Positions 10,388-26,272 of a stretch of DNA of 64,000 nucleotides are shown piece by piece. The translations under genes and the position numbers were made by a program. The notes below the pieces were generated by a model, which saw only the letters and a list, made by a program, of their open reading frames with translations, was not told the origin of the DNA and ran no database searches. The DNA is from Agromyces luteolus (lineage in GTDB: Bacteria; Actinomycetota; Actinomycetes; Actinomycetales; Microbacteriaceae), in contig NZ_WODA01000006.1 in the NCBI RefSeq assembly GCF_009729855.1, forward strand, positions 186,001 to 250,000. The letters run 5' to 3'. Every line of letters begins with the position of its first letter. Positions within the stretch are counted from its first letter, which is position 1.

Positions 10388-10428
10388 CCCGGTGGTCGAG
10401 TGGGCCCGAAGGACCCGTATCGAGACCC
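10388..10428. repeat. Half copy of the dispersed GGTGGTCGAGT palindromic element, intergenic
   Basis: The sequence CCCGGTGGTCGAGTGGG followed by CCCGAAGGACCCGTATCGAGACC is the left arm of the same element found in the sulfur genes. Here it lies between the ATPase stop codon and the lipoprotein gene and is not translated. It shows that the element also occurs outside genes. Confidence 0.8.
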
Positions 10429-17226: not shown

Positions 17227-18996
17227 GTGACGATCGAGACGACGGATGCCGCGACGCGCGCGCCGCGCACCGAGCGCGCCGAGCGTCCCGCGCGCGCGGA
17301 TCGGCCAGCCCGCGACATCCGCCCGCCCCGACCCTCGGCGAAGCCGAACGGGCAGTGGAAGGTCGACGGCACGACCCCGCTCAACGCGAACGAGGAGTGG
17401 AAGCAGGCCGACGGCGGCCTCGAGGTGCGCGAGCGCATCGAGCGGATCTACGCCGACGGCGGCTTCGCGTCGATCGACCCGACCGACCTGCACGGCCGGT
17501 TCCGCTGGTGGGGCCTGTACACGCAGCGCAAGCCCGGCATCGACGGCGGCCGGACCGCGACCCTCGAGCCGCACGAGCTCGAGGACGAGTACTTCATGCT
17601 GCGCGTCCGCATCGACGGCGGGCAGCTCACGACCGAGCAGCTGCGCGTCATCGGCGGCATCTCGACCGAGTTCGGCCGCGACACGGCCGACCTGACCGAC
17701 CGGCAGAACGTCCAGCTGCACTGGATCCGCGTCGAGGACGTGCCCGAGATCTGGAGCCGGCTCGAGGCGGTCGGCCTCGGCACGACCGAGGCCTGCGGCG
17801 ACGTGCCCCGCGTCGTCCTCGGCTCACCGGTCGCGGGCATCGCGGCCGACGAGCTCATCGACCCGACCCCGCAGATCGACGAGATCACGAGCCGGTTCAT
17901 CGGCGACGAGTCGCTCGCGAACCTGCCGCGCAAGTTCAAGTCTGCGATCACGGGCCACCCCAGCCAGGACGTCGTGCACGAGATCAACGACGTCGCGTTC
18001 GTCGCGGTCGAGCACCCCGAGCTCGGCGTCGGCTACGACCTCTGGGTCGGCGGCGGGCTGTCGACGGCGCCGCGCCTGGCCGAGCGCCTCGGCGTCTTCG
18101 TGGCGCCCGACCGCGTCGCCGACGCCTGGCACGGCGTCGCGCAGATCTTCCGCGACTACGGCTACCGGCGGCTGCGCAACAAGGCGCGCCTGAAGTTCCT
18201 GCTCGCCGACTGGGGCACCGAGAAGTTCCGCGATGTGCTCGAGACCGAGTACTTGGGGCATGCCCTTCCGGACGGCCCGGCCGCGCCGACGCCCGTGACG
18301 ACCGGCGACCACGTCGGCGTGCACCGCCAGAAGGACGGCCGCTTCTACGTCGGCGCCACGCCGATCGTCGGCCGCGTTTCCGGCCCGACGCTGACGAAGC
18401 TCGCCGACCTCGTCGAAGCGCACGGCTCGACCCGCCTGCGGACCACGCCGCACCAGAAGGTCGTCATCCTCGACATCCCGGAGGAGCGGGTCGAATCGCT
18501 CATCGCGGGCCTCGACGAGCTCGGGCTCCAGGCGCGACCGAGCCTCATCCGCCGGGGCACGATCGCGTGCACGGGCATCGAGTTCTGCAAGCTCGCGATC
18601 GTCGAGACGAAGGCGTTCGCGACGGCGGCCGTGCTCGACCTCGAGGAGCGGCTCGACGCCTTCGACCTGCCGCACCCCATCAGTCTGCACGTCAACGGAT
18701 GCCCCAACTCGTGCGCGCGCATCCAGACCGCCGACATCGGACTGAAGGGCCAGCTCGTCACGATCGACGGCGAGCAGGTGCCGGGCTACCAGGTGCACCT
18801 CGGCGGCGGCCTCGCGTCGCAGGACCGCGACGAAGCCGGCCTCGGCCGGACGGTGCGCGGCCTCAAGGTCACGGCCGACGGCATCGCCGACTACGTTTCG
18901 CGCGTGGTGACGCGGTTCCTCGACGAGCGCCACGCGGCGGCCGACGAGACGTTCGCGCAGTGGGCGCACCGCGCCGACGAGGAGTCGCTCCGATGA
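17227..18996 (+). CDS. sir: Ferredoxin-dependent sulfite reductase (siroheme, 4Fe-4S)
   Basis: 589 residues from GTG 17227, behind GAGGAGGGG; a GTG at 17191 has no such site. It catalyses six-electron reduction of sulfite to sulfide with ferredoxin. The first 45 residues are a variable, arginine-rich extension. Two ferredoxin-like half domains follow (LHGRFRWWGLYTQRKPG, FMLRVRIDGGQL; and GVHRQKDGRFYVG). The siroheme/4Fe-4S cysteines are clear in CTGIEFCK and NGCPNSCAR. Length and sequence match the mycobacterial SirA type rather than NADPH-linked CysI. It opens a run of eight genes whose starts overlap the previous stop. FprA at the end of the region could regenerate the ferredoxin. Confidence 0.92.
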   Translation: MTIETTDAATRAPRTERAERPARADRPARDIRPPRPSAKPNGQWKVDGTTPLNANEEWKQADGGLEVRERIERIYADGGFASIDPTDLHGRFRWWGLYTQRKPGIDGGRTATLEPHELEDEYFMLRVRIDGGQLTTEQLRVIGGISTEFGRDTADLTDRQNVQLHWIRVEDVPEIWSRLEAVGLGTTEACGDVPRVVLGSPVAGIAADELIDPTPQIDEITSRFIGDESLANLPRKFKSAITGHPSQDVVHEINDVAFVAVEHPELGVGYDLWVGGGLSTAPRLAERLGVFVAPDRVADAWHGVAQIFRDYGYRRLRNKARLKFLLADWGTEKFRDVLETEYLGHALPDGPAAPTPVTTGDHVGVHRQKDGRFYVGATPIVGRVSGPTLTKLADLVEAHGSTRLRTTPHQKVVILDIPEERVESLIAGLDELGLQARPSLIRRGTIACTGIEFCKLAIVETKAFATAAVLDLEERLDAFDLPHPISLHVNGCPNSCARIQTADIGLKGQLVTIDGEQVPGYQVHLGGGLASQDRDEAGLGRTVRGLKVTADGIADYVSRVVTRFLDERHAAADETFAQWAHRADEESLR

Positions 18997-19841
18997 GCGC
19001 GCGGAACGTCGGCCCCGGTGGTCGAGTGGCGCCGAACCCCGGTGGTCGAGTAGCACCGAAGGCGCGTATCGAGACCACCCCGGTGCGCGGTCTCGATGCG
19101 GGCGCTTCGCGTCCTACTCGACCGACGGGCTTCCGTTCCCCCGACGAACTGCGTGCCCTCGCCGAGGCCGGCAACGCGGCGCTCGGCAGCCTGACCGACC
19201 ACGAGGCATCCCCCGCCGAGGTCGTCGCGTGGGTCGCGGCGAACTTCGCGACGGAAGCCGCAGCCGTCGCCTGCTCGATGGCCGATGCCGCGCTCCCCCA
19301 CCTCGTGGCCGAGCAGCTGCCCGGCGTCGACGTGCTGTTCCTCGACACCGGCTACCACTTCGCCGAGACGCGCGTCACGCGCGACGAGGTCGCCCGGCAG
19401 CTCGACGTGCGCGTGGTCGACGTGCTGCCCGAGCAGACCGTCGCCGAGCAGGACGCCGAGTTCGGCGCCCAGCTGTTCGCCCACGACCCCGCGCTGTGCT
19501 GCGCACGGCGCAAGGTCGAGCCGCTCCAGCGGGCCCTCGGCGGCTACGAGGTGTGGTTCACGGGCGTCCGCCGCGACGAGGCGCCGACGCGCACGCTCAC
19601 GCCGCTCGTGACGTACGACGATCGGAACGGGCTCGTGAAGGTGAATCCGGTCGCGGCGTGGACCTTCGACGACCTCCTCGACTACGCGGGCGTGCACCAG
19701 GTGCCCGTGAACCTCCTGATGTCGCACGGCTACCCCTCGATCGGCTGCGAGCCGTGCACGAAGCCCGTCGCCGCGGGCGAGGACCCGAGGTCCGGCCGCT
19801 GGGCCGGCCTCGCCAAGACGGAATGCGGGTTGCACCTATGA
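18993..19841 (+). CDS. cysH: APS reductase (4Fe-4S type) with element-encoded N-terminus
   Basis: 282 residues from ATG 18993 (ATGA overlap). It reduces adenylyl sulfate to sulfite and AMP with thioredoxin. The PP-loop-type domain begins near residue 50 (AVACSMADAAL, FLDTGYHFAET). Two cysteine pairs, CCARRK and CEPC, mark the iron-sulfur APS-reducing form, and the catalytic cysteine is in KTECGLHL. Residues 7-45 (GGRVAP twice, ARIET, GLDAGASRPTRPT) are translated palindromic element. The last in-frame ATG/GTG/TTG before the conserved domain is GTG 19083, directly before the right arm, so at least that arm must be read. No CysC kinase gene is near, in line with direct APS use. Confidence 0.92.
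   Translation: MSARNVGPGGRVAPNPGGRVAPKARIETTPVRGLDAGASRPTRPTGFRSPDELRALAEAGNAALGSLTDHEASPAEVVAWVAANFATEAAAVACSMADAALPHLVAEQLPGVDVLFLDTGYHFAETRVTRDEVARQLDVRVVDVLPEQTVAEQDAEFGAQLFAHDPALCCARRKVEPLQRALGGYEVWFTGVRRDEAPTRTLTPLVTYDDRNGLVKVNPVAAWTFDDLLDYAGVHQVPVNLLMSHGYPSIGCEPCTKPVAAGEDPRSGRWAGLAKTECGLHL
19012..19128. repeat. Palindromic element in frame inside cysH
   Basis: A truncated left arm (19012-19036) is followed by a full left arm GGTGGTCGAGTAGC...GTATCGAGACC (19041-19076) and a right arm GGTCTCGATGCGGGC...CTACTCGACC (19089-19127). The arms are imperfect complements of each other. The whole stretch is open in the cysH frame. Confidence 0.9.
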
Positions 19842-21037
19842 GCGAGAGCATCATCCCCGGTGGTCGAGTGGCGAGCGCCGGCGAGGCCATCCCCGGTGGT
19901 CGAGTAGCGAGCGCCGGCGAGGCCATCCCCGGTGGTCGAGTAGCACCGGAGGCGCGTATCGAGACCGCCCGCGTGCAAGGTCTCGATACGGGCGCTGGCG
20001 CGTCCTACTCGACCACCGAGAACCTCGATACGGGCGCTGGCGCGTCCTACTCGACCACCGAAGGTCTCGATACGGGCGCTGGCGCGTCCTACTCGACCAC
20101 CGAAGGTCTCGATACGGGCGCTGACGCGTCCTACTCGACCACCGCCACGCTCGACGCGCTCGACGTGCTCGAGGCGGAGGCGATCCACGTGATCCGCGAG
20201 GTCGTCGCCGAGTTCGAGCGGCCCGTGCTGCTCTTCTCCGGCGGCAAGGACTCGGTCGTCGTGCTGCACCTCGCGGCCAAGGCGTTCTGGCCCGCGAAGG
20301 TGCCGTTCCCCGTGCTGCACGTCGACACGGGCCACAACTTCCCCGAGGTGCTGCGGTTCCGCGACGAGACGGTCGCTCGGCTCGGCATCCGCCTCGAGGT
20401 CGCCTCGGTGCAGGACTACCTCGACGACGGCCGGCTGCAGGAGCGTGCCGACGGCACCCGGAACCCGCTGCAGACGCAGCCGCTGCTCGACGCCATCGCG
20501 GCCGGTCGGCACGACGCGGTCTTCGGCGGCGCGCGCCGCGACGAGGACAAGGCGCGCGCCAAGGAGCGCATCATCTCGTTGCGGGACGAGTTCGGCCAGT
20601 GGGATCCGCGCAACCAGCGACCCGAGCTCTGGAGCCTCTACAACGGGCGGCACACGGTCGGCCAGCACGTGCGCGCGTTCCCGATCTCGAACTGGACCGA
20701 GCTCGACGTGTGGCGCTACATCGAGCGCGAGGGCATCGCGCTGCCGCCGCTCTACTTCGCACACGAGCGCGACGTGTATGCGCGCGACGGCATGTGGCTC
20801 GCGGTGAGCGACGTCTCCGCGCCCCGCGCGGGCGAGACGGTCGAACGCCGCACGGTCCGCTACCGCACCGTCGGCGACCTCAGCTGCACCGGGGCGGTCG
20901 TCTCGGAGGCCGCGACGCTGTCGGACATCGTGCGCGAGGTCGCGGCATCCACCCTCACCGAGCGCGGTGCGACGCGCGCCGACGACCGCCTCTCCGAGGC
21001 GGCCATGGAGGACCGCAAGAAGGACGGGTACTTCTGA
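19838..21037 (+). CDS. cysD: Sulfate adenylyltransferase small subunit with repetitive N-terminus
   Basis: 399 residues from ATG 19838 (ATGA overlap). With CysN it makes APS from sulfate and ATP. The conserved part starts near residue 105 (LDVLEAEAIHVIREV) and contains the PP-loop LLFSGGKDS, HVDTGHNFPEVL, RRDEDKARAKERI and WSLYNGRH. Normal CysD has about 300 residues; this one has about 100 extra at the front. These are two IPGGRVASAGEA units of 12 residues, a unit ending ARIET, and four units of 14 residues like GLDTGAGASYSTTE. A GTG at 20165 lies just before the conserved part and could in principle give a shorter product, but no good Shine-Dalgarno precedes it. Confidence 0.92.
   Translation: MSESIIPGGRVASAGEAIPGGRVASAGEAIPGGRVAPEARIETARVQGLDTGAGASYSTTENLDTGAGASYSTTEGLDTGAGASYSTTEGLDTGADASYSTTATLDALDVLEAEAIHVIREVVAEFERPVLLFSGGKDSVVVLHLAAKAFWPAKVPFPVLHVDTGHNFPEVLRFRDETVARLGIRLEVASVQDYLDDGRLQERADGTRNPLQTQPLLDAIAAGRHDAVFGGARRDEDKARAKERIISLRDEFGQWDPRNQRPELWSLYNGRHTVGQHVRAFPISNWTELDVWRYIEREGIALPPLYFAHERDVYARDGMWLAVSDVSAPRAGETVERRTVRYRTVGDLSCTGAVVSEAATLSDIVREVAASTLTERGATRADDRLSEAAMEDRKKDGYF
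19856..20146. repeat. Tandemly amplified arms of the palindromic element inside cysD
   Basis: Three left-arm units begin at about 19856, 19892 and 19928 (period 36 bases). Four right-arm units begin at 19979, 20021, 20063 and 20105 (period 42 bases). Both periods are multiples of three, so the reading frame is kept. The copies are almost identical, which points to recent duplication. Confidence 0.9.
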
Positions 21038-22467
21038 TGAGCGAGCACATCGGCGATCGAGTGGCGAGCGCGAGCGTGGGTCTCGATACGGGCGCTGACG
21101 CGTCCTACTCGACCACCGAAGGTCTCGATACGGGCGCTTCGCGTCCTACTCGACCCACAGCGACCGGCACGCTCTTCCGCTTCGCGACGGCCGGGTCGGT
21201 CGACGACGGCAAGTCGACGCTCGTCGGCCGCCTGCTGCACGACTCGAAGGCGATCCTCGCCGATCAGCTCGAGTCGGTGGCCCGCACCAGCGCGGAGCGC
21301 GGCTTCGGCGGCGAGCCGGGCGCGATCGACTTCGCGCTGCTCACTGACGGGCTGCGCGCGGAGCGCGAGCAGGGCATCACGATCGACGTCGCCTACCGCT
21401 ACTTCACGACCGGTCGCCGGTCGTTCATCCTCGCCGACTGCCCCGGCCACGTGCAGTACACGCGCAACATGGTCACGGGCTCGGCGACCGCCGACGCGGT
21501 CGTCGTGCTCGTCGACGTGCGCAACGGCGTGCTCGAGCAGACCCGACGCCACCTCGCGGTCGTGCAGCTGCTTCGCGTGCCGCACGTGATCGTCGCCGTG
21601 AACAAGATCGACCTCGTCGGCTACGACCGCGCCGCCTTCGACGCGGTGGCGGCGGATGTCGCGGCGCTCGCGAACGACCTCGGCCTGCCCGACGCGCACG
21701 TCATCCCGGTCTCCGCGCTCGCGGGCGACAACGTCGTCGAGCGCTCGGCGAACACGCCCTGGTACGACGGGCCGTCGCTCCTCGAGCTGCTCGAGGAGCT
21801 GAGCACGATCGACGAGCTCGAGACCGACCTCGAGGCGCTGCGGCTGCCCGTGCAGCTCGTGATCCGCCCGCAGGGCGGGCTGTCGCCGGACGTGACGGAT
21901 GCCGCGGCCGATGAGCTCCGCGACCATCGCGCCTTCGCGGGCCGCATCGAGTCGGGCACAGTGAAGGTCGGCGATCCCGTCGAGGTGTTCCCCGCCGGCG
22001 TGCGGACGACGGTCACGGGCATCCGCCGCGGCCCCGAAGCGCTCGCCGAGGCATCCGCCCCGCTCTCGGTCGCGCTCGAGCTCGCCGACCCCGTCGACGC
22101 CGCGCGCGGCGCGGTGATCGCCGCCGCCGGCTCGCTGCCCGCGCCGCGGCGCGAGCTCGACGCTGACGTGTTCCAGCTCGACGCGCGACCGCTCGCGACC
22201 GGGGCCCGGGTGCTCGTCAAGCACGGCACCACGACCGTGCAGGCGATCGTCACCGACATCCGCGGACGCCTCGACCTCGACACGCTCGAGACGACGCCGA
22301 CCGCGTCGCTCGCGACGAACGACATCGGGCTCGTCCGCCTGAAGCTCGCGGCCGACCTCGCCGCCGAGCCGTACGCGGCGCACCGCCGTGCGGGCGCGTT
22401 CCTCGTCATCCACCCGCAGGACGGCGCGACCCTCGCCGCCGGCATCGTCGTGGAGGCGCCGGCGTGA
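21037..22467 (+). CDS. cysN: Sulfate adenylyltransferase large subunit (GTPase)
   Basis: 476 residues from ATG 21037 (TGATG overlap). The GTPase domain drives APS synthesis by CysD: G1 GSVDDGKST, switch region EREQGITIDVAYRYF, G3 DCPGHVQYTRNM, G4 NKID, then two beta-barrel domains. There is no CysC kinase fusion. Residues 5-41 are element-derived (DRVASAS, then GLDTGADASYSTTE and GLDTGASRPTRPT). Between the element and GTLFRFATAGS there is no ATG, GTG or TTG in frame. The last possible start is GTG 21076, three bases before the right arm, so the right-arm peptide must be part of the protein. Confidence 0.92.
   Translation: MSEHIGDRVASASVGLDTGADASYSTTEGLDTGASRPTRPTATGTLFRFATAGSVDDGKSTLVGRLLHDSKAILADQLESVARTSAERGFGGEPGAIDFALLTDGLRAEREQGITIDVAYRYFTTGRRSFILADCPGHVQYTRNMVTGSATADAVVVLVDVRNGVLEQTRRHLAVVQLLRVPHVIVAVNKIDLVGYDRAAFDAVAADVAALANDLGLPDAHVIPVSALAGDNVVERSANTPWYDGPSLLELLEELSTIDELETDLEALRLPVQLVIRPQGGLSPDVTDAAADELRDHRAFAGRIESGTVKVGDPVEVFPAGVRTTVTGIRRGPEALAEASAPLSVALELADPVDAARGAVIAAAGSLPAPRRELDADVFQLDARPLATGARVLVKHGTTTVQAIVTDIRGRLDLDTLETTPTASLATNDIGLVRLKLAADLAAEPYAAHRRAGAFLVIHPQDGATLAAGIVVEAPA
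21051..21158. repeat. Palindromic element in frame inside cysN
   Basis: A degenerate left arm (GATCGAGTGGCGAGCG) is followed by two right-arm units, 21079-21120 (42 bases, like those in cysD) and 21121-21158 (the shorter GCTTCGCGTCC form, like the one in cysH). Confidence 0.88.
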
Positions 22468-23570
22468 CCCGCCGCGGGCTCGGTGCACAGCTCGGCGAAC
22501 TCGTCGCCGGCGTCGCGGTCGCCGCGGCGATCGTCATCGTGCCCGTGGTGATCGGGTCGGTCGGCCGTGCCGCGGCCGAGGGGCCGGGCGCAGCCGGGGC
22601 GACGGATGCCGCGGCCCTCCGCCTCGGCTACTTCGCCAACGTCACGCACCTGCCCGCACTCGTCGGCCTCGAGACCGGCGCCATCGCCGACGAGCTCGGG
22701 GCGACCGCGCTCGAGCCGCAGGCGTTCAACGCCGGGCCGGCCGCCGTCGAGGCACTGAGCGCCGGCGCGATCGACGCCGCCTACCTCGGTCCGAGCCCGG
22801 CGATCAACAGCTTCGTGCAGTCGGGCGGCACCTCGCTCCGGATCGTCGCGGGCGCCGTCGGCGGCGGTGCCGCACTCGTGGTGCGCGACGGCATCGACGA
22901 CGCCGACGACCTGCGGGGCGCGACGCTCGCGACGCCCCAACTCGGCAACACGCAGGACGTCGCGCTCCGCACCTGGCTCGCCGACCACGACCTCGAGACC
23001 TCGCCGACCGGCGGCGGCGACGTCGACATCGTGCCGACCGACAACGCCCGCACGCTCCAGCTCTTCACGACCGGCGCGATCGACGGCGCGTGGCTGCCGG
23101 AGCCCTGGGCCTCGCGGCTCGTCATCGAGGCGGGCGCGAACGTGCTCGTCGACGAGGCGGAGCTCTGGCCGGGCGGCGCGTTCCCGACGACGCTGCTCGT
23201 CGTGCGCGCCGAGTACCTCGAGGCGCACCCCGACGCGGTCGCTGCGCTCGTCGCCGGGCACGCGGCATCCGTCGACTGGATCTCGACGCACCCCGACGAG
23301 GTGCCGGCGCTCGTGAACGCTCGCCTTGCGGCCGACGCCGGAGCGCCGCTGCCCGACGCCGTGCTCGAGCGCGCGCTCGCGCACGTCGCGCCGACGGTCG
23401 ACCCGTTCGCGGCGGCGCTGCCCGTGCTGCAGCGGAACGCCGTCGCGGCCGGGACGGCGGAGGCGGGCGATCTCGCCGGCATCCTCGACCTCGGGCCGCT
23501 CGACGCCGTCCAAGCCGGCGCCGGGCTCGACCCGATCGACGATGCCGGACTCGACGGGGGTGCGCGATGA
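22464..23570 (+). CDS. SsuA/TauA-like substrate-binding protein
   Basis: 368 residues from GTG 22464 (GTGA overlap with cysN). An N-terminal hydrophobic segment (LVAGVAVAAAIVIVPVVIG) serves as signal or anchor; there is no lipobox cysteine. The mature part has the NMT1/SsuA fold: LRLGYFANVTHLPALVGLETG, AVEALSAGAIDAAYLGPSPAINSF, GATLATPQLGNTQDVALRTWL and GAWLPEPWASRL. Relatives bind aliphatic sulfonates, taurine or similar compounds. Its place inside a sulfur assimilation operon supports sulfonate or sulfate-ester uptake. The C-terminus is longer and Ala/Asp-rich. Confidence 0.85.
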   Translation: MTRRGLGAQLGELVAGVAVAAAIVIVPVVIGSVGRAAAEGPGAAGATDAAALRLGYFANVTHLPALVGLETGAIADELGATALEPQAFNAGPAAVEALSAGAIDAAYLGPSPAINSFVQSGGTSLRIVAGAVGGGAALVVRDGIDDADDLRGATLATPQLGNTQDVALRTWLADHDLETSPTGGGDVDIVPTDNARTLQLFTTGAIDGAWLPEPWASRLVIEAGANVLVDEAELWPGGAFPTTLLVVRAEYLEAHPDAVAALVAGHAASVDWISTHPDEVPALVNARLAADAGAPLPDAVLERALAHVAPTVDPFAAALPVLQRNAVAAGTAEAGDLAGILDLGPLDAVQAGAGLDPIDDAGLDGGAR

Positions 23571-24316
23571 CCGCGGCACCCGCCATCCGCCTCGCCGGCG
23601 TCGGCAAGCAGTACGCCGCCGACGGGCCGGTCGTGCTCGACGGCATCGACCTCGCCGTCGCACCGGGCGAGTTCGCGTGCCTGCTCGGTGCGTCGGGCTG
23701 CGGCAAGTCGACGCTCCTCGCCCTCATCGCCGGGCTCGAGCAGCCGAGCACCGGCACGATCGAGGTCGACGGCCGCGCCGCGGTCATGTTCCAGGAGGCG
23801 TCGCTGCTGCCGTGGCTCAGCGCCCGACGCAACGTCGAGCTCGCACTGCGCTTCGGCGACGCCGGCCTCTCGCGGGCGGCGCGCCGCGACCGCGCGCTCG
23901 AGCTGCTCGACGTCGTGCACCTCGCGGATGCCGCGGACAAGCGACCGCACGAGCTGTCCGGCGGCATGCGGCAGCGCGTCGCGCTCGCGCGCGCCCTCGC
24001 TCAGGACCGGTCGGTGCTGCTCATGGACGAGCCGTTCGCCGCGCTCGACGCCATCACGCGCGACCTGCTGCACGAGGAGCTCGAGCGCGTCTGGCGCGAG
24101 ACCGGCCGGACGATCGTGTTCGTCACGCACAACGTGCGCGAGGCCGCGCGGCTCGGGCAGCGCGTGCTGCTCATGTCGAGCCGCCCGGGCCGCATCGTCA
24201 ACGAGTGGCGCATCGCCGACGACGGGCCGCGCCGCATCGAGTCGCCCACCGTGTCCGAGCTCTCGGTCGAGATCACCGAGCACCTGCGAAGGGAGATCCG
24301 CCGCAATGCCGCATGA
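23567..24316 (+). CDS. SsuB/TauB-like ABC transporter ATPase
   Basis: 249 residues from ATG 23567 (ATGA overlap). It shows Walker A GASGCGKST, Q-loop MFQEASLLPWL, signature LSGGMRQRVALARA, Walker B VLLMDEPFAALD and FVTHNVREA with the switch histidine. The LSGGM signature and the short length without a TOBE domain are typical of the nitrate/sulfonate/taurine (SsuB/TauB/SsiB) subgroup. It works with the binding protein before it and the permease after it. It carries no palindromic element. Confidence 0.9.
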   Translation: MTAAPAIRLAGVGKQYAADGPVVLDGIDLAVAPGEFACLLGASGCGKSTLLALIAGLEQPSTGTIEVDGRAAVMFQEASLLPWLSARRNVELALRFGDAGLSRAARRDRALELLDVVHLADAADKRPHELSGGMRQRVALARALAQDRSVLLMDEPFAALDAITRDLLHEELERVWRETGRTIVFVTHNVREAARLGQRVLLMSSRPGRIVNEWRIADDGPRRIESPTVSELSVEITEHLRREIRRNAA

Positions 24317-25394
24317 CACCCTCCCCGCCGCGACCGGTGGTCGAGTAGCGAGCGACAGCGAGCCCCACCCCGGTGGTCGAGTAGCGAGCGACAGCGAGCG
24401 TATCGAGACCCCCTCGCCGGGTCTCGATACGGGCCCTTCGGGTCCGACTCGACCCACGGAACAGAGCGACAGCGAGCGTATCGAGACCCCCTCGCCGGGT
24501 CTCGATACGGGCCCTTCGGGTCCTACTCGACCCACGGAACAGCTCGACACCGAGCTGCGTGGGCTCGACCGGCTGCAGACGACCGCCGAGCGCCGCACCC
24601 CGTGGTGGCGCCGGGCGATCGACGGCGTGCTCCCGCCCGTGCTGCTCCTCGTCGTGCTCGTCGCGGCCTGGCAGGCCTACACGGTCATCGCGCAGCCGCG
24701 GCCCGACCTCGCACCCGGCCCGCTCGACGTCGCCGCCGCGCTCGGCCAGGCCTGGGAGGACGGACGCCTGCAGCTCGCCGTCGCGACGAGCCTCGAGCGC
24801 GGCATCCTCGGCTTCCTCATCGCGGTCGCCGTCGGCACCCCGCTCGGCCTGCTGCTCGCCGAGTGGGCGCCGCTCCGGCGCGCGCTCGGCCCGCTCATCT
24901 CGGGCCTGCAGGTGCTGCCGTCGGTCGCGTGGGTTCCCGCCGCGATCCTCTGGTTCGGGCTGTCGGATGCCACGGTGTACTTCGTCGTGCTCATGGGCGC
25001 GATCCCGTCGATCGTGAACGGGCTCGTCGCCGGTGTCGCGCAGGTGCCGCCGCAGCTGCGCCGGGTCGGCACGGTGCTCGGCGCGTCGCGGCTCGAGCTC
25101 GCGGCATCCGTCGTGCTGCCTGCGGCGCTGCCCGGCTACCTCGCCGGGCTCAAGCAGGGGTGGGCGTTCTCGTGGCGCTCGCTCATGGCGGCCGAGATCA
25201 TCGCGTTCGGCGGATCGATCGGCTTCGGCGTCGGCTCGCTGCTGCAGCAGGGCCGCGACCTCGCCGACCTCGCGAGCGTGCTCGGCACCATCCTCGTGAT
25301 CCTCGCCATCGGCGTCGTGATCGAGTTGCTCGTCTTCGCCCCGGTCGAGCGCGGGATGCTGCGCCGCCGCGGACTCACTGGAGGAACCCCATGA
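24306..25394 (+). CDS. SsuC/TauC-like ABC permease with element-encoded N-terminus
   Basis: 362 residues from ATG 24306, which overlaps the ATPase gene by 11 bases. The membrane part begins near residue 105 (VLPPVLLLVVLVAAWQAYTVI) and has six helices, with the EAA-type loop LRRVGTVLGASRLELAASVVLPAALPGYLAGLK. Residues 10-80 are palindromic element: two GGRVASDSE units and then a 26-residue unit (SDSERIETPSPGLDTG...) twice. No start codon occurs between 24306 and GTG 24627, which lies at the edge of the first helix. That GTG is a possible but weak alternative start. Permeases of this family usually have 250-290 residues. Confidence 0.88.
   Translation: MPHDTLPAATGGRVASDSEPHPGGRVASDSERIETPSPGLDTGPSGPTRPTEQSDSERIETPSPGLDTGPSGPTRPTEQLDTELRGLDRLQTTAERRTPWWRRAIDGVLPPVLLLVVLVAAWQAYTVIAQPRPDLAPGPLDVAAALGQAWEDGRLQLAVATSLERGILGFLIAVAVGTPLGLLLAEWAPLRRALGPLISGLQVLPSVAWVPAAILWFGLSDATVYFVVLMGAIPSIVNGLVAGVAQVPPQLRRVGTVLGASRLELAASVVLPAALPGYLAGLKQGWAFSWRSLMAAEIIAFGGSIGFGVGSLLQQGRDLADLASVLGTILVILAIGVVIELLVFAPVERGMLRRRGLTGGTP
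24334..24541. repeat. Palindromic element with 78-base tandem duplication inside ssuC-like gene
   Basis: Two left-arm units (starting about 24335 and 24371) are followed by a 78-base block GAGCGACAGCGAGCG...CCACGGAACA present twice (24386 and 24464). The block contains the inner part of the left arm, a short spacer and the whole right arm. 78 bases is 26 codons, so the frame is kept. Confidence 0.9.
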
Positions 25395-26272
25395 CCGAGA
25401 ACATCCCCGGTGGTCGAGTAGCGCCGGAGGCGCGTATCGAGGCCCCCACGCGAGGTCTCGATACGCTCGCTGACGCTCGCTACTCGACCACCGGAGACGA
25501 CCGGAAGGGCCACGTCGCACTCGTGGGCGCGGGCCCCGGCGAGCCCGGGCTGCTCACCATCCGCGGGCTCCGCGCGCTCGAGGCCGCCGACGTGATCGTC
25601 GCCGACCGGCTCGGCGCCCGCTCGGTGCTCGACGGCCTCGCCGCCGAGGGCGTCGAGCTTCGCGCCGAGGTCGTCGACGTGGGCAAACTGCCCGGCCACC
25701 ACGCCGTGCCGCAGGACGCGATCAACGAGCTGCTCGTCACGCTCGCCCGCGACGGCAAGCGCGTCGTGCGCCTCAAGGGCGGCGACCCGTACGTGTTCGG
25801 CCGCGGCGGCGAGGAGCTCGCGTACTGCCGCGAGGGCGGCGTGGACGTCGAGGTCGTGCCCGGCATCACGAGCGCGGTGTCGGTGCCCGCGATCGCCGGC
25901 ATCCCGCTCACGCACCGCGGGCTGGCGACGACGTTCACGGTCGTGACCGGCCACGACCAGATCCAGTCGCTCGGCGGCACGCGCGACCACACCGTAGTGC
26001 TGCTCATGGGCGTCGGCACGCTCGCGAACTCGGCCATCACGCTCGCCCGCGGCGAGCGCGGTGCCGACTGCCCCGTCGCGATCGTGGAGGATGGATACGG
26101 CCCTCGCCAACGAGTGACGATCGGCACGCTCGGCACGATCGCCCACCAGGCGGCGGTGCGGGGCGTGCGGTCGCCCGCGGTCGTGGTGGTCGGCGACGTG
26201 GTGCGGCTGAGTCCGTACGCGCCCGCCGAGCTCGCGGCATCCGCCCTCACGGCGCCCCCGGCCCTCGACTGA
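25391..26272 (+). CDS. cobA: Uroporphyrinogen-III C-methyltransferase (SUMT)
   Basis: 293 residues from ATG 25391 (ATGA overlap), behind GGAGGAAC. It methylates uroporphyrinogen III twice to precorrin-2, the first step to siroheme for the sulfite reductase of the same operon. Family motifs are VALVGAGPGEPGLLT, VRLKGGDPYVFGRGGEE, VVPGITSAVSVPAIAGIPLTHRG and VTGHD. Residues 5-35 are a complete palindromic element in translation (IPGGRVAPEARIEA...GLDTLADARYSTTGD). The next start codon is a GTG inside the first beta strand (25523), so the element must be translated in full. The enzyme is not fused to the CysG dehydrogenase/chelatase domain. Confidence 0.92.
   Translation: MTENIPGGRVAPEARIEAPTRGLDTLADARYSTTGDDRKGHVALVGAGPGEPGLLTIRGLRALEAADVIVADRLGARSVLDGLAAEGVELRAEVVDVGKLPGHHAVPQDAINELLVTLARDGKRVVRLKGGDPYVFGRGGEELAYCREGGVDVEVVPGITSAVSVPAIAGIPLTHRGLATTFTVVTGHDQIQSLGGTRDHTVVLLMGVGTLANSAITLARGERGADCPVAIVEDGYGPRQRVTIGTLGTIAHQAAVRGVRSPAVVVVGDVVRLSPYAPAELAASALTAPPALD
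25406..25494. repeat. Complete palindromic element in frame inside cobA
   Basis: Left arm CCGGTGGTCGAGTAGC...GTATCGAGGCC and right arm GGTCTCGATACGC...GCTACTCGACCACCGG pair over their outer parts across a short spacer. It is the cleanest full copy in the window and lies only five codons after the start codon. Confidence 0.9.

Follow-up and report, generated by a model that had tools for sequence, protein, structure and literature searches.

Palindromic repeats lying in frame within sulfur-operon genes and other conserved genes of Agromyces

In five genes of a sulfur operon of the actinobacterium Agromyces luteolus, copies of a palindromic repeat lie between the start codon and the conserved part of the encoded protein, which raises the question of how such a repeat came to occupy these places and whether it has become part of the proteins. 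The stretch of DNA analysed, referred to here as the window, comprises 64,000 nt (assembly GCF_009729855.1, contig NZ_WODA01000006.1, positions 186,001–250,000, forward strand). The initial annotation described copies of the palindrome in frame near the N-termini of cysH, cysD, cysN, an ssuC-like permease gene and cobA, and all five arrays could be located at the 5' ends of these genes. We consider it highly probable that the repeat is a REP-like (repetitive extragenic palindromic) element of the genus Agromyces which multiplies in the genome, and of which in-frame copies have been kept and are translated.

The repeat and its five arrays in the sulfur operon

The element is a hairpin composed of CCGGTGGTCGAGTAG, a variable inner stem and CGTATCGAGACC. 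Its edges are CCGGTGG...CGAGACC, and conservation falls directly outside them, as judged from 135 units that were collected with the arms as search string, the leading CC and the outer drop in conservation not being part of that string. The inner stem covaries: 75 distinct sequences occur among 116 units, yet the stem is still palindromic. Its first pair is C-G in 61 units and G-C in 54 (paired in 115/116, versus 0.50 expected from the column mix), and its fourth pair is formed in 104/105 units; the second pair is often unpaired, being formed in only 72/116. No Rfam family reached the gathering score for the hairpin in a search of the window. Within the window, the arm GGTGGTCGAGTAG has 26 matches with at most two mismatches (1.48 expected) and the arm GGTCTCGATACG has 15 with at most one mismatch (0.56 expected); neither number was reached by any of 100 shuffles.

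All five arrays are read on the forward strand. The array of cysH (PAPS reductase; 19015..19128) consists of two left arms, one right end and one right arm and reads PGGRVAPNPGGRVAPKARIETTPVRGLDAGASRPTRPT; it follows an ATGA (18993..18996) in which the cysH start overlaps the stop of the upstream NIR_SIR gene. In cysD, three left and four right arms are arranged in steps of 36 and 42 nt (19857..20144), encoding PGGRVA...RIETARVQGLDTGAGASYSTT followed by more right-arm units (GLDTGAGASYSTT is an example of the encoded peptide), and the start overlaps the cysH stop in an ATGA at 19838..19841. The cysN array (21051..21158) contains one decayed left arm and two right arms and reads GDRVASASVGLDTGADASYSTTEGLDTGASRPTRPT, behind a TGATG shared with the cysD stop (21035..21039). 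A further array lies in the SsuC-like ABC permease gene (24334..24537), the start of which overlaps the end of an ABC-ATPase gene (24306..24316), and a pair of elements reading PGGRVAPEARIEAPTRGLDTLADARYSTT is found in cobA (tetrapyrrole methylase; 25407..25492), where the start overlaps the stop of the ssuC-like gene in an ATGA at 25391..25394.

In all five genes an open frame extends from the overlapping start across the element and into the core, and the Pfam profile match starts downstream of the element (PAPS_reduct for cysH and cysD, GTP_EFTU for cysN, BPD_transp_1 for the ssuC-like gene and TP_methylase for cobA). Homology of CysD to the solved CysD structure 1zun likewise begins at residue 105, just past the array. 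As to the other forward frames of the left arm, the initial annotation rightly noted that one contains TAG, but a second one, reading W-S-S, is open.

In-frame copies in other genes and their probable translation

The element is not peculiar to sulfur genes. In the genome of A. luteolus (3.90 Mb in 26 contigs) the two-arm pattern GGTCTCGATACG-N5-30-TACTCGACCACC has 73 matches and the reversed control none; the two arms taken singly have 108 and 114 exact matches. Placement was classified for clusters of two or more arms, lone arms being left out; at least 73 such clusters were recognized in 53 stretches around arm matches and in the window, with 100 of the 108 and 100 of the 114 arms listed and, beyond the window, roughly one of either kind unplaced. 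Sixteen of the 73 clusters, picked by hand, lie in frame within 15 genes: the five of the sulfur operon and ten others, which encode HutH (histidine ammonia-lyase), a ClpC-like AAA+ protein with two inserts, an SNF2 helicase, an ABC-F protein, a LysE exporter, a class III aminotransferase fusion, PaaA/PaaC, FecCD, TilS and a redoxin. This set retains TilS (L110) despite its low flank score; it leaves out a decayed in-frame cluster in L126, which we take to be an amidase-like gene, and two clusters at L098 2681 and L099 2707 that are read through. Pfam domains could be identified in all ten genes outside the window. Several of their copies are situated mid-gene; in the SNF2 helicase, for instance, the insert amounts to about 86 residues and follows the GLGKT motif. 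In PaaA/PaaC, FecCD and the redoxin the copies are N-terminal and come immediately after a start codon which itself overlaps the stop of the preceding gene. The earlier statement that the element always sits behind such stop/start overlaps thus applies to these and to the five sulfur-operon genes, but not to the copies in the middle of genes.

The arms lying on the coding strand show a strict codon phase. All 18 left arms (10 genes) are in phase 0, and so are all 18 right arms (from 13 clusters in 12 genes), even though the right arm is open in each of the three phases, giving 36/36 arms in all; GGT is always a whole codon and the base preceding the left arm is nearly always C. Intragenic units measure 35–44 nt from arm to arm and have grown in tandem. 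Their length is a multiple of three in 16/22 cases, versus 26/94 of the other units (Fisher p 1.4e-4, tandem units not being independent).

For the copies within genes, translation appears from the reading frames to be the only good interpretation. Copies in the middle of genes, which have open frames to either side, would have to be translated, since the gene would otherwise be broken. Together with element-free orthologues in congeners, they provide better evidence than the N-termini for a protein-coding element, as had been suggested by comparison with Rickettsia. For the five N-terminal copies it could alternatively be supposed that they are untranslated leader hairpins, with translation starting downstream. 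A survey of GTAG REPs indeed cautions that, for this reason, an extragenic position is possible for many of the REPs found at annotated N-termini (PMC3733652), and in-frame GTG codons follow the element after 21 nt in cysD (GTG 20165), 28 nt in cobA (GTG 25523) and 87 nt in ssuC (GTG 24627). Those of cysD and cobA, however, sit in conserved secondary structure, within the conserved LDALDVLEAEAIH and the VALVGAGPG strand, respectively. The 120 nt that follow the element in cysH are free of in-frame starts, and so are 117 nt in cysN, which reach deep into the GTPase core; the last possible starts before are GTG 19083 and GTG 21076, each just ahead of the right arm. Both this position and the lack of a cobA start between the element and the first beta strand agree with the initial annotation. 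Moreover, the upstream start, overlapping the upstream stop, is kept at all 30 cysD and cysN loci compared below, and leader hairpins leave the mid-gene copies unaccounted for. This explanation is therefore very improbable, and in its pure form it is ruled out by the start-codon positions and the mid-gene copies. The weakest case for a translated repeat is ssuC, in which a late start downstream of the element is possible, as GTG 24627 lies where the first hydrophobic segment begins.

Filled and empty sites in congeners

The cysD and cysN genes were compared in 29 congeners and A. luteolus itself. Two of the genomes marked as congeners share an identical cysD core with records of A. mediolanus and A. 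humi, in agreement with a host of the genus Agromyces. At 30/30 loci both starts overlap the upstream stop, with or without the element; the cysD loci were confirmed by a CysD motif in 30/30 cases in this set and in 21/23 of a second set. Besides the repeat described above (family A), a sister repeat with arms GGTTTCGAGACG...CTCCTCAACC was recognized (family B); in the operons the two were distinguished by eye. Family A is present in cysD of five of the 30 genomes (A. luteolus, G260, G270, G274 and G302) and family B in three (G255, G268 and G295), while 22 have neither.

Eleven further operons were read, mostly chosen for their repeats, so that the nine with some repeat do not represent a rate, for which the 8/30 of cysD is less biased. 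As the initial cysH motif had picked out another gene at five loci and no gene at two, cysH was reread in 12 operons, and in one of them it was not found. The element occurs in cysD, cysN and cobA of G260, with arm matches at the ssuC position; in cysH, cysD, cysN, ssuB and ssuC of G270; in cysH, cysD and cobA of G302, where it is decayed in ssuB; and in cysH, cysD and cysN of G274. G268 has a repeat in cysH, cysD, cysN and cobA, G255 has family B in cysH and cysD, G295 has a repeat in cysD (its cysH was not found), and G258 has a decayed element in cysH. In cysN of G275 (L191) a different repeat-like peptide, PEPVEG, is encoded, perhaps representing a third repeat. No repeat was seen in the operons of G278 and G272. 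In a tree of cysD plus cysN, families A and B each need three label changes among eight labelled rows, a count that leaves 22 rows uncounted, includes some weak branches and scores losses as changes. The cysD element shared by A. luteolus and G260 is identical at 88/90 positions, compared to 94.1% for the core, and the tail was therefore taken as inherited rather than fresh.

Copy numbers differ widely between these genomes. With a shorter pattern, 92 family A copies were counted in A. luteolus, 85 in G260, 194 in G302, 105 in G295, 40 in G268, 31 in G274, 23 in G270, 10 in G258, four in G278, three in G255, one each in G259 and G275, and none in G266, G272, G263, G300 and G276. Family B reaches 105 copies in G295 and 93 in G268, and at most eight in the other 16 genomes searched. 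Genomes with an element in cysD are rich in that same family (at least 23 copies), except G255 with five strict family B copies. More widely, the strict two-arm pattern was matched by 25/249 genomes of the family, and the shorter pattern by 4/396 genomes of the phylum, including A. luteolus itself and one genome that belongs to another family. A distant actinobacterium of the same class but a different family (G517) has 69 copies with the same arms and longer inner stems.

Mid-gene sites were followed by alignment of HutH and the ClpC-like protein from A. luteolus and 14 congeners. In HutH, family A is present in A. luteolus and G260 and decayed in G270, whereas G268 has family B; no element was seen in the remaining congeners aligned, apart from what may be a remnant in G302. 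Site 2 of the ClpC-like gene is filled in A. luteolus, G278, G260 and G270, by family B in G268, and in G295 by an apparent hybrid of A and B, with none seen in the other nine. Site 1 is filled in A. luteolus and G278 and, by a different form, in G274; it could not be recovered from two genomes. About 20 nt of the unfilled site 1 have given way to the element, and no clean insertion was found when target-site duplication was checked. Wherever recovered, the reading frame is kept (HutH 15/15, site 2 15/15, site 1 13/15 genomes). Intact genes thus lack the element in some congeners, and the same or the sister repeat occupies the same loop or N-terminus in others. That the arrays are assembly artefacts could be imagined, as repeats are a known source of error and the assembly is in 26 contigs, but congeners whose genomes were assembled separately, such as G260 and G270, carry the same insertions, which leaves this with a negligible probability.

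Two side observations concern these proteins. The shorter pattern finds only four element copies in G278, whose ClpC-like protein (L152) nonetheless has both Clp inserts and is 95% identical; its gene may have been acquired by transfer. The MIO (methylidene-imidazolone) tripeptide expected in HutH is Ala-Ser-Gly; HutH of A. luteolus (L085) reads Cys-Ser-Gly (GCSGDL) at this position.

Placement, retention and relation to known repeats

The remaining 57 of the 73 clusters examined were not classed as genic: 33 lie between co-directional genes, 16 between convergent and none between divergent genes, and eight have unclear flanks. Gene ends facing such a cluster number 71, of which 57 are situated 0–60 nt before it and three touch its first base; eight use the element TAG as stop, two read through and one is further away. 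The eight proteins that stop at the left-arm TAG end in VVE (six) or in EVE or AVE (two); their genes are L086 3642, L094 2850, L097 1501, L102 4281, L108 2693, L113 3079, L118 2726 and L120 2973. The two clusters read through by the upstream gene (L098 2681 and L099 2707, with stops at +113 and +111) may form the C-terminal end of that protein. In the window, the sole further two-arm copy is a single intergenic unit (10389..10427, unstranded), 6 nt behind a stop codon. Such placement just behind stop codons is typical of REP elements (PMC3733652).

We propose that a REP-like element multiplies in the Agromyces genome with its usual resting place just behind stop codons, and that copies entering tolerant stretches of genes in frame would be retained, their translation giving tails or loops that are flexible and probably disordered. 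Keeping and translating them would be possible because the frames are open (two of three forward frames of the left arm, all three of the right arm). Where a start overlaps the upstream stop, the site just behind the stop codon already belongs to the sequence that encodes the N-terminus of the following protein. The initial annotation supposed absorption from intergenic gaps, but this is contradicted by the overlap at 30/30 loci, element-free relatives included, which implies that the element entered coding sequence, 14–30 nt behind an existing start codon. At this distance the ribosome landing site would remain free and only a variable linker would be lengthened; in-frame copies probably survive there because landing site and folded core are both untouched. 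After entry, units would multiply in tandem by multiples of three bases. We infer that the copies are neutral, as well as this order of events.

Several observations weigh against this proposal. The phase lock is tighter than plain tolerance predicts, chiefly for the right arm with all its phases open, and minus-strand arms are looser (-b arms: nine in phase 0, three in phase 2; -a arms: nine in phase 2, seven in phase 1). The Clp site 2 insert of G260 and G270 is partly in another frame (AYRDP), and the division into intragenic and other clusters rests on gene calls made from codon scores, not on an annotation. A disordered CysD tail is predicted by an AlphaFold2 model (residues 8–92 have a pLDDT, the model's per-residue confidence, below 50), but this is weak evidence of disorder, because parts of the core are of low confidence as well (model mean 67.2).

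Rather than being neutral, the operon copies could have been kept for their RNA, with hairpins just behind the start codon tuning the coupling of the genes or the stability of the mRNA between them, and with the peptide as a by-product. Whole pairs fold strongly in cysD (-57.4 kcal/mol, z -6.8), cobA (-60.0, z -7.6) and ssuC (-50.1, z -4.7), none of the 49 classified clusters lies between divergent genes, and structure just behind a stop codon is reported to reduce coupling (PMC12548453). The inner stem also covaries genome-wide, but as this was counted over intergenic and intragenic copies together, it is no argument for a role in the operon. Against such a role, the tested pieces of cysH (z -1.5) and cysN (one unit, z -2.5) fold less strongly, 22/30 cysD genes have neither family, 2/11 operons read have no repeat, and mid-gene copies could have no such role; we regard this explanation as rather unlikely. 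Less likely still is selection for the peptides, in which the tails of CysH, CysD, CysN and CobA would help the pathway, e.g. by holding the enzymes together. It would fit with the colonization of the same N-termini by two sister families, and perhaps a third repeat, across congeners, with the three label changes of each family in the tree, and with the presence of family B in cysH and cysD of G255 despite only five strict genomic copies. The same peptides, however, occur in proteins as unrelated as HutH, a helicase and a transporter, relatives manage without the tails, the tail is predicted to be disordered, and the element has decayed in some genomes. The abundance of the respective family in all cysD-bearing genomes but G255 indicates supply, not need.

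For the movement of the element, the transposase RAYT was considered, but no match to its domain (Y1_Tnp, PF01797) was found in A. luteolus (E 1) or in 16 related genomes (E 0.001), in a search whose controls matched in 10 and 5 of 14 control genomes and which did not extend to other transposase families. It is a speculative idea, to which we give a rather low probability, that a palindromic repeat without known transposase enters genes in a codon-phase-locked manner and uses one operon as recurrent landing site, so that sulfate-assimilation tails are remade from successive repeat families.

Repeats of this kind are already known. Rickettsia palindromic elements (RPEs) are small palindromes found between genes and in frame inside unrelated conserved proteins; for the RPE in gmk the insert-bearing enzyme was shown to be made and active, and protein-coding palindromes of Wolbachia are cited alongside (PMC2229807). 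The Agromyces repeat shares this distribution, with many palindromic copies in the genome and in-frame copies in conserved genes that have element-free orthologues. RPEs are given there as 105–146 bp, whereas the present intragenic units are 35–44 nt, in tandem, in a GC-rich actinobacterium.

The GTAG/CGTC REPs are described as short hairpins near 3' ends, mostly between co-directional or convergent genes, with the element TAG serving as stop and intragenic clusters encoding 43–82 residues (PMC3733652). The Agromyces element resembles them in its short hairpin, its placement (33 co-directional and 16 convergent of 49 classified clusters), its TAG stops and its intragenic copies. In contrast, its GTAG is not terminal but has GGTGGTCGA outside it, conserved at 88–100% per position over 135 units, a figure that is partly by construction as units were picked by arm matches with at most two mismatches. 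Unlike many GTAG REPs, it has no RAYT domain in the 17 genomes searched, RAYT being often, not always, present in known cases. The phyla listed in that survey are Proteobacteria, Cyanobacteria, Chloroflexi and the PVC group for GTAG REPs, and Proteobacteria, Chlorobi, Bacteroidetes, Spirochaetes and Thermotogae for CGTC REPs, Actinobacteria not being among either (PMC3733652).

Within the Actinobacteria, the MIRU of mycobacteria is described as apparently mobile and inserting at start codons via -4 stop/start coupling (PMC12548453). It is likewise a repeat at coupled stop/start junctions, but it brings its own open reading frame coupled to the gene, whereas the Agromyces repeat has no such frame with a -4 overlap into a downstream start; it keeps the existing start and joins the downstream protein. 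RepRanger counted REPs in three Actinomycetota, e.g. Arthrobacter livingstonensis, and thus in the same phylum; the passages concerned mention neither in-frame coding copies nor Microbacteriaceae, and 'microbacteri' is absent from the whole text (PMC12306157). No account of the present family could be found in the open-licence literature, where none of four arm strings occurs, and the earlier view that the actinobacterial sulfur-gene case is undescribed stands within that literature. What is new here is the actinobacterial family, its strict codon phase, its in-frame tandem growth and the recurrent colonization of one operon.

In the known protein-coding palindromes of Rickettsiales and some REP families, doubtful start codons often left uncertainty. 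Here, filled and empty sites occur within one genus in the same loops of well-known enzymes, with two sister families and 0–194 copies per genome, and these sites make testable both the movement of a repeat without known transposase and the conversion of repeat DNA into protein. For annotation they serve as a warning that N-terminal repeats of coupled genes can be coding sequence.

Apart from the palindrome, the window contains 37 copies of the word GCGGATGCC, where 1.98 would be expected (e.g. at 22018–22026 and 23924–23932); it is perhaps a Chi-like or chromosome-organising word.

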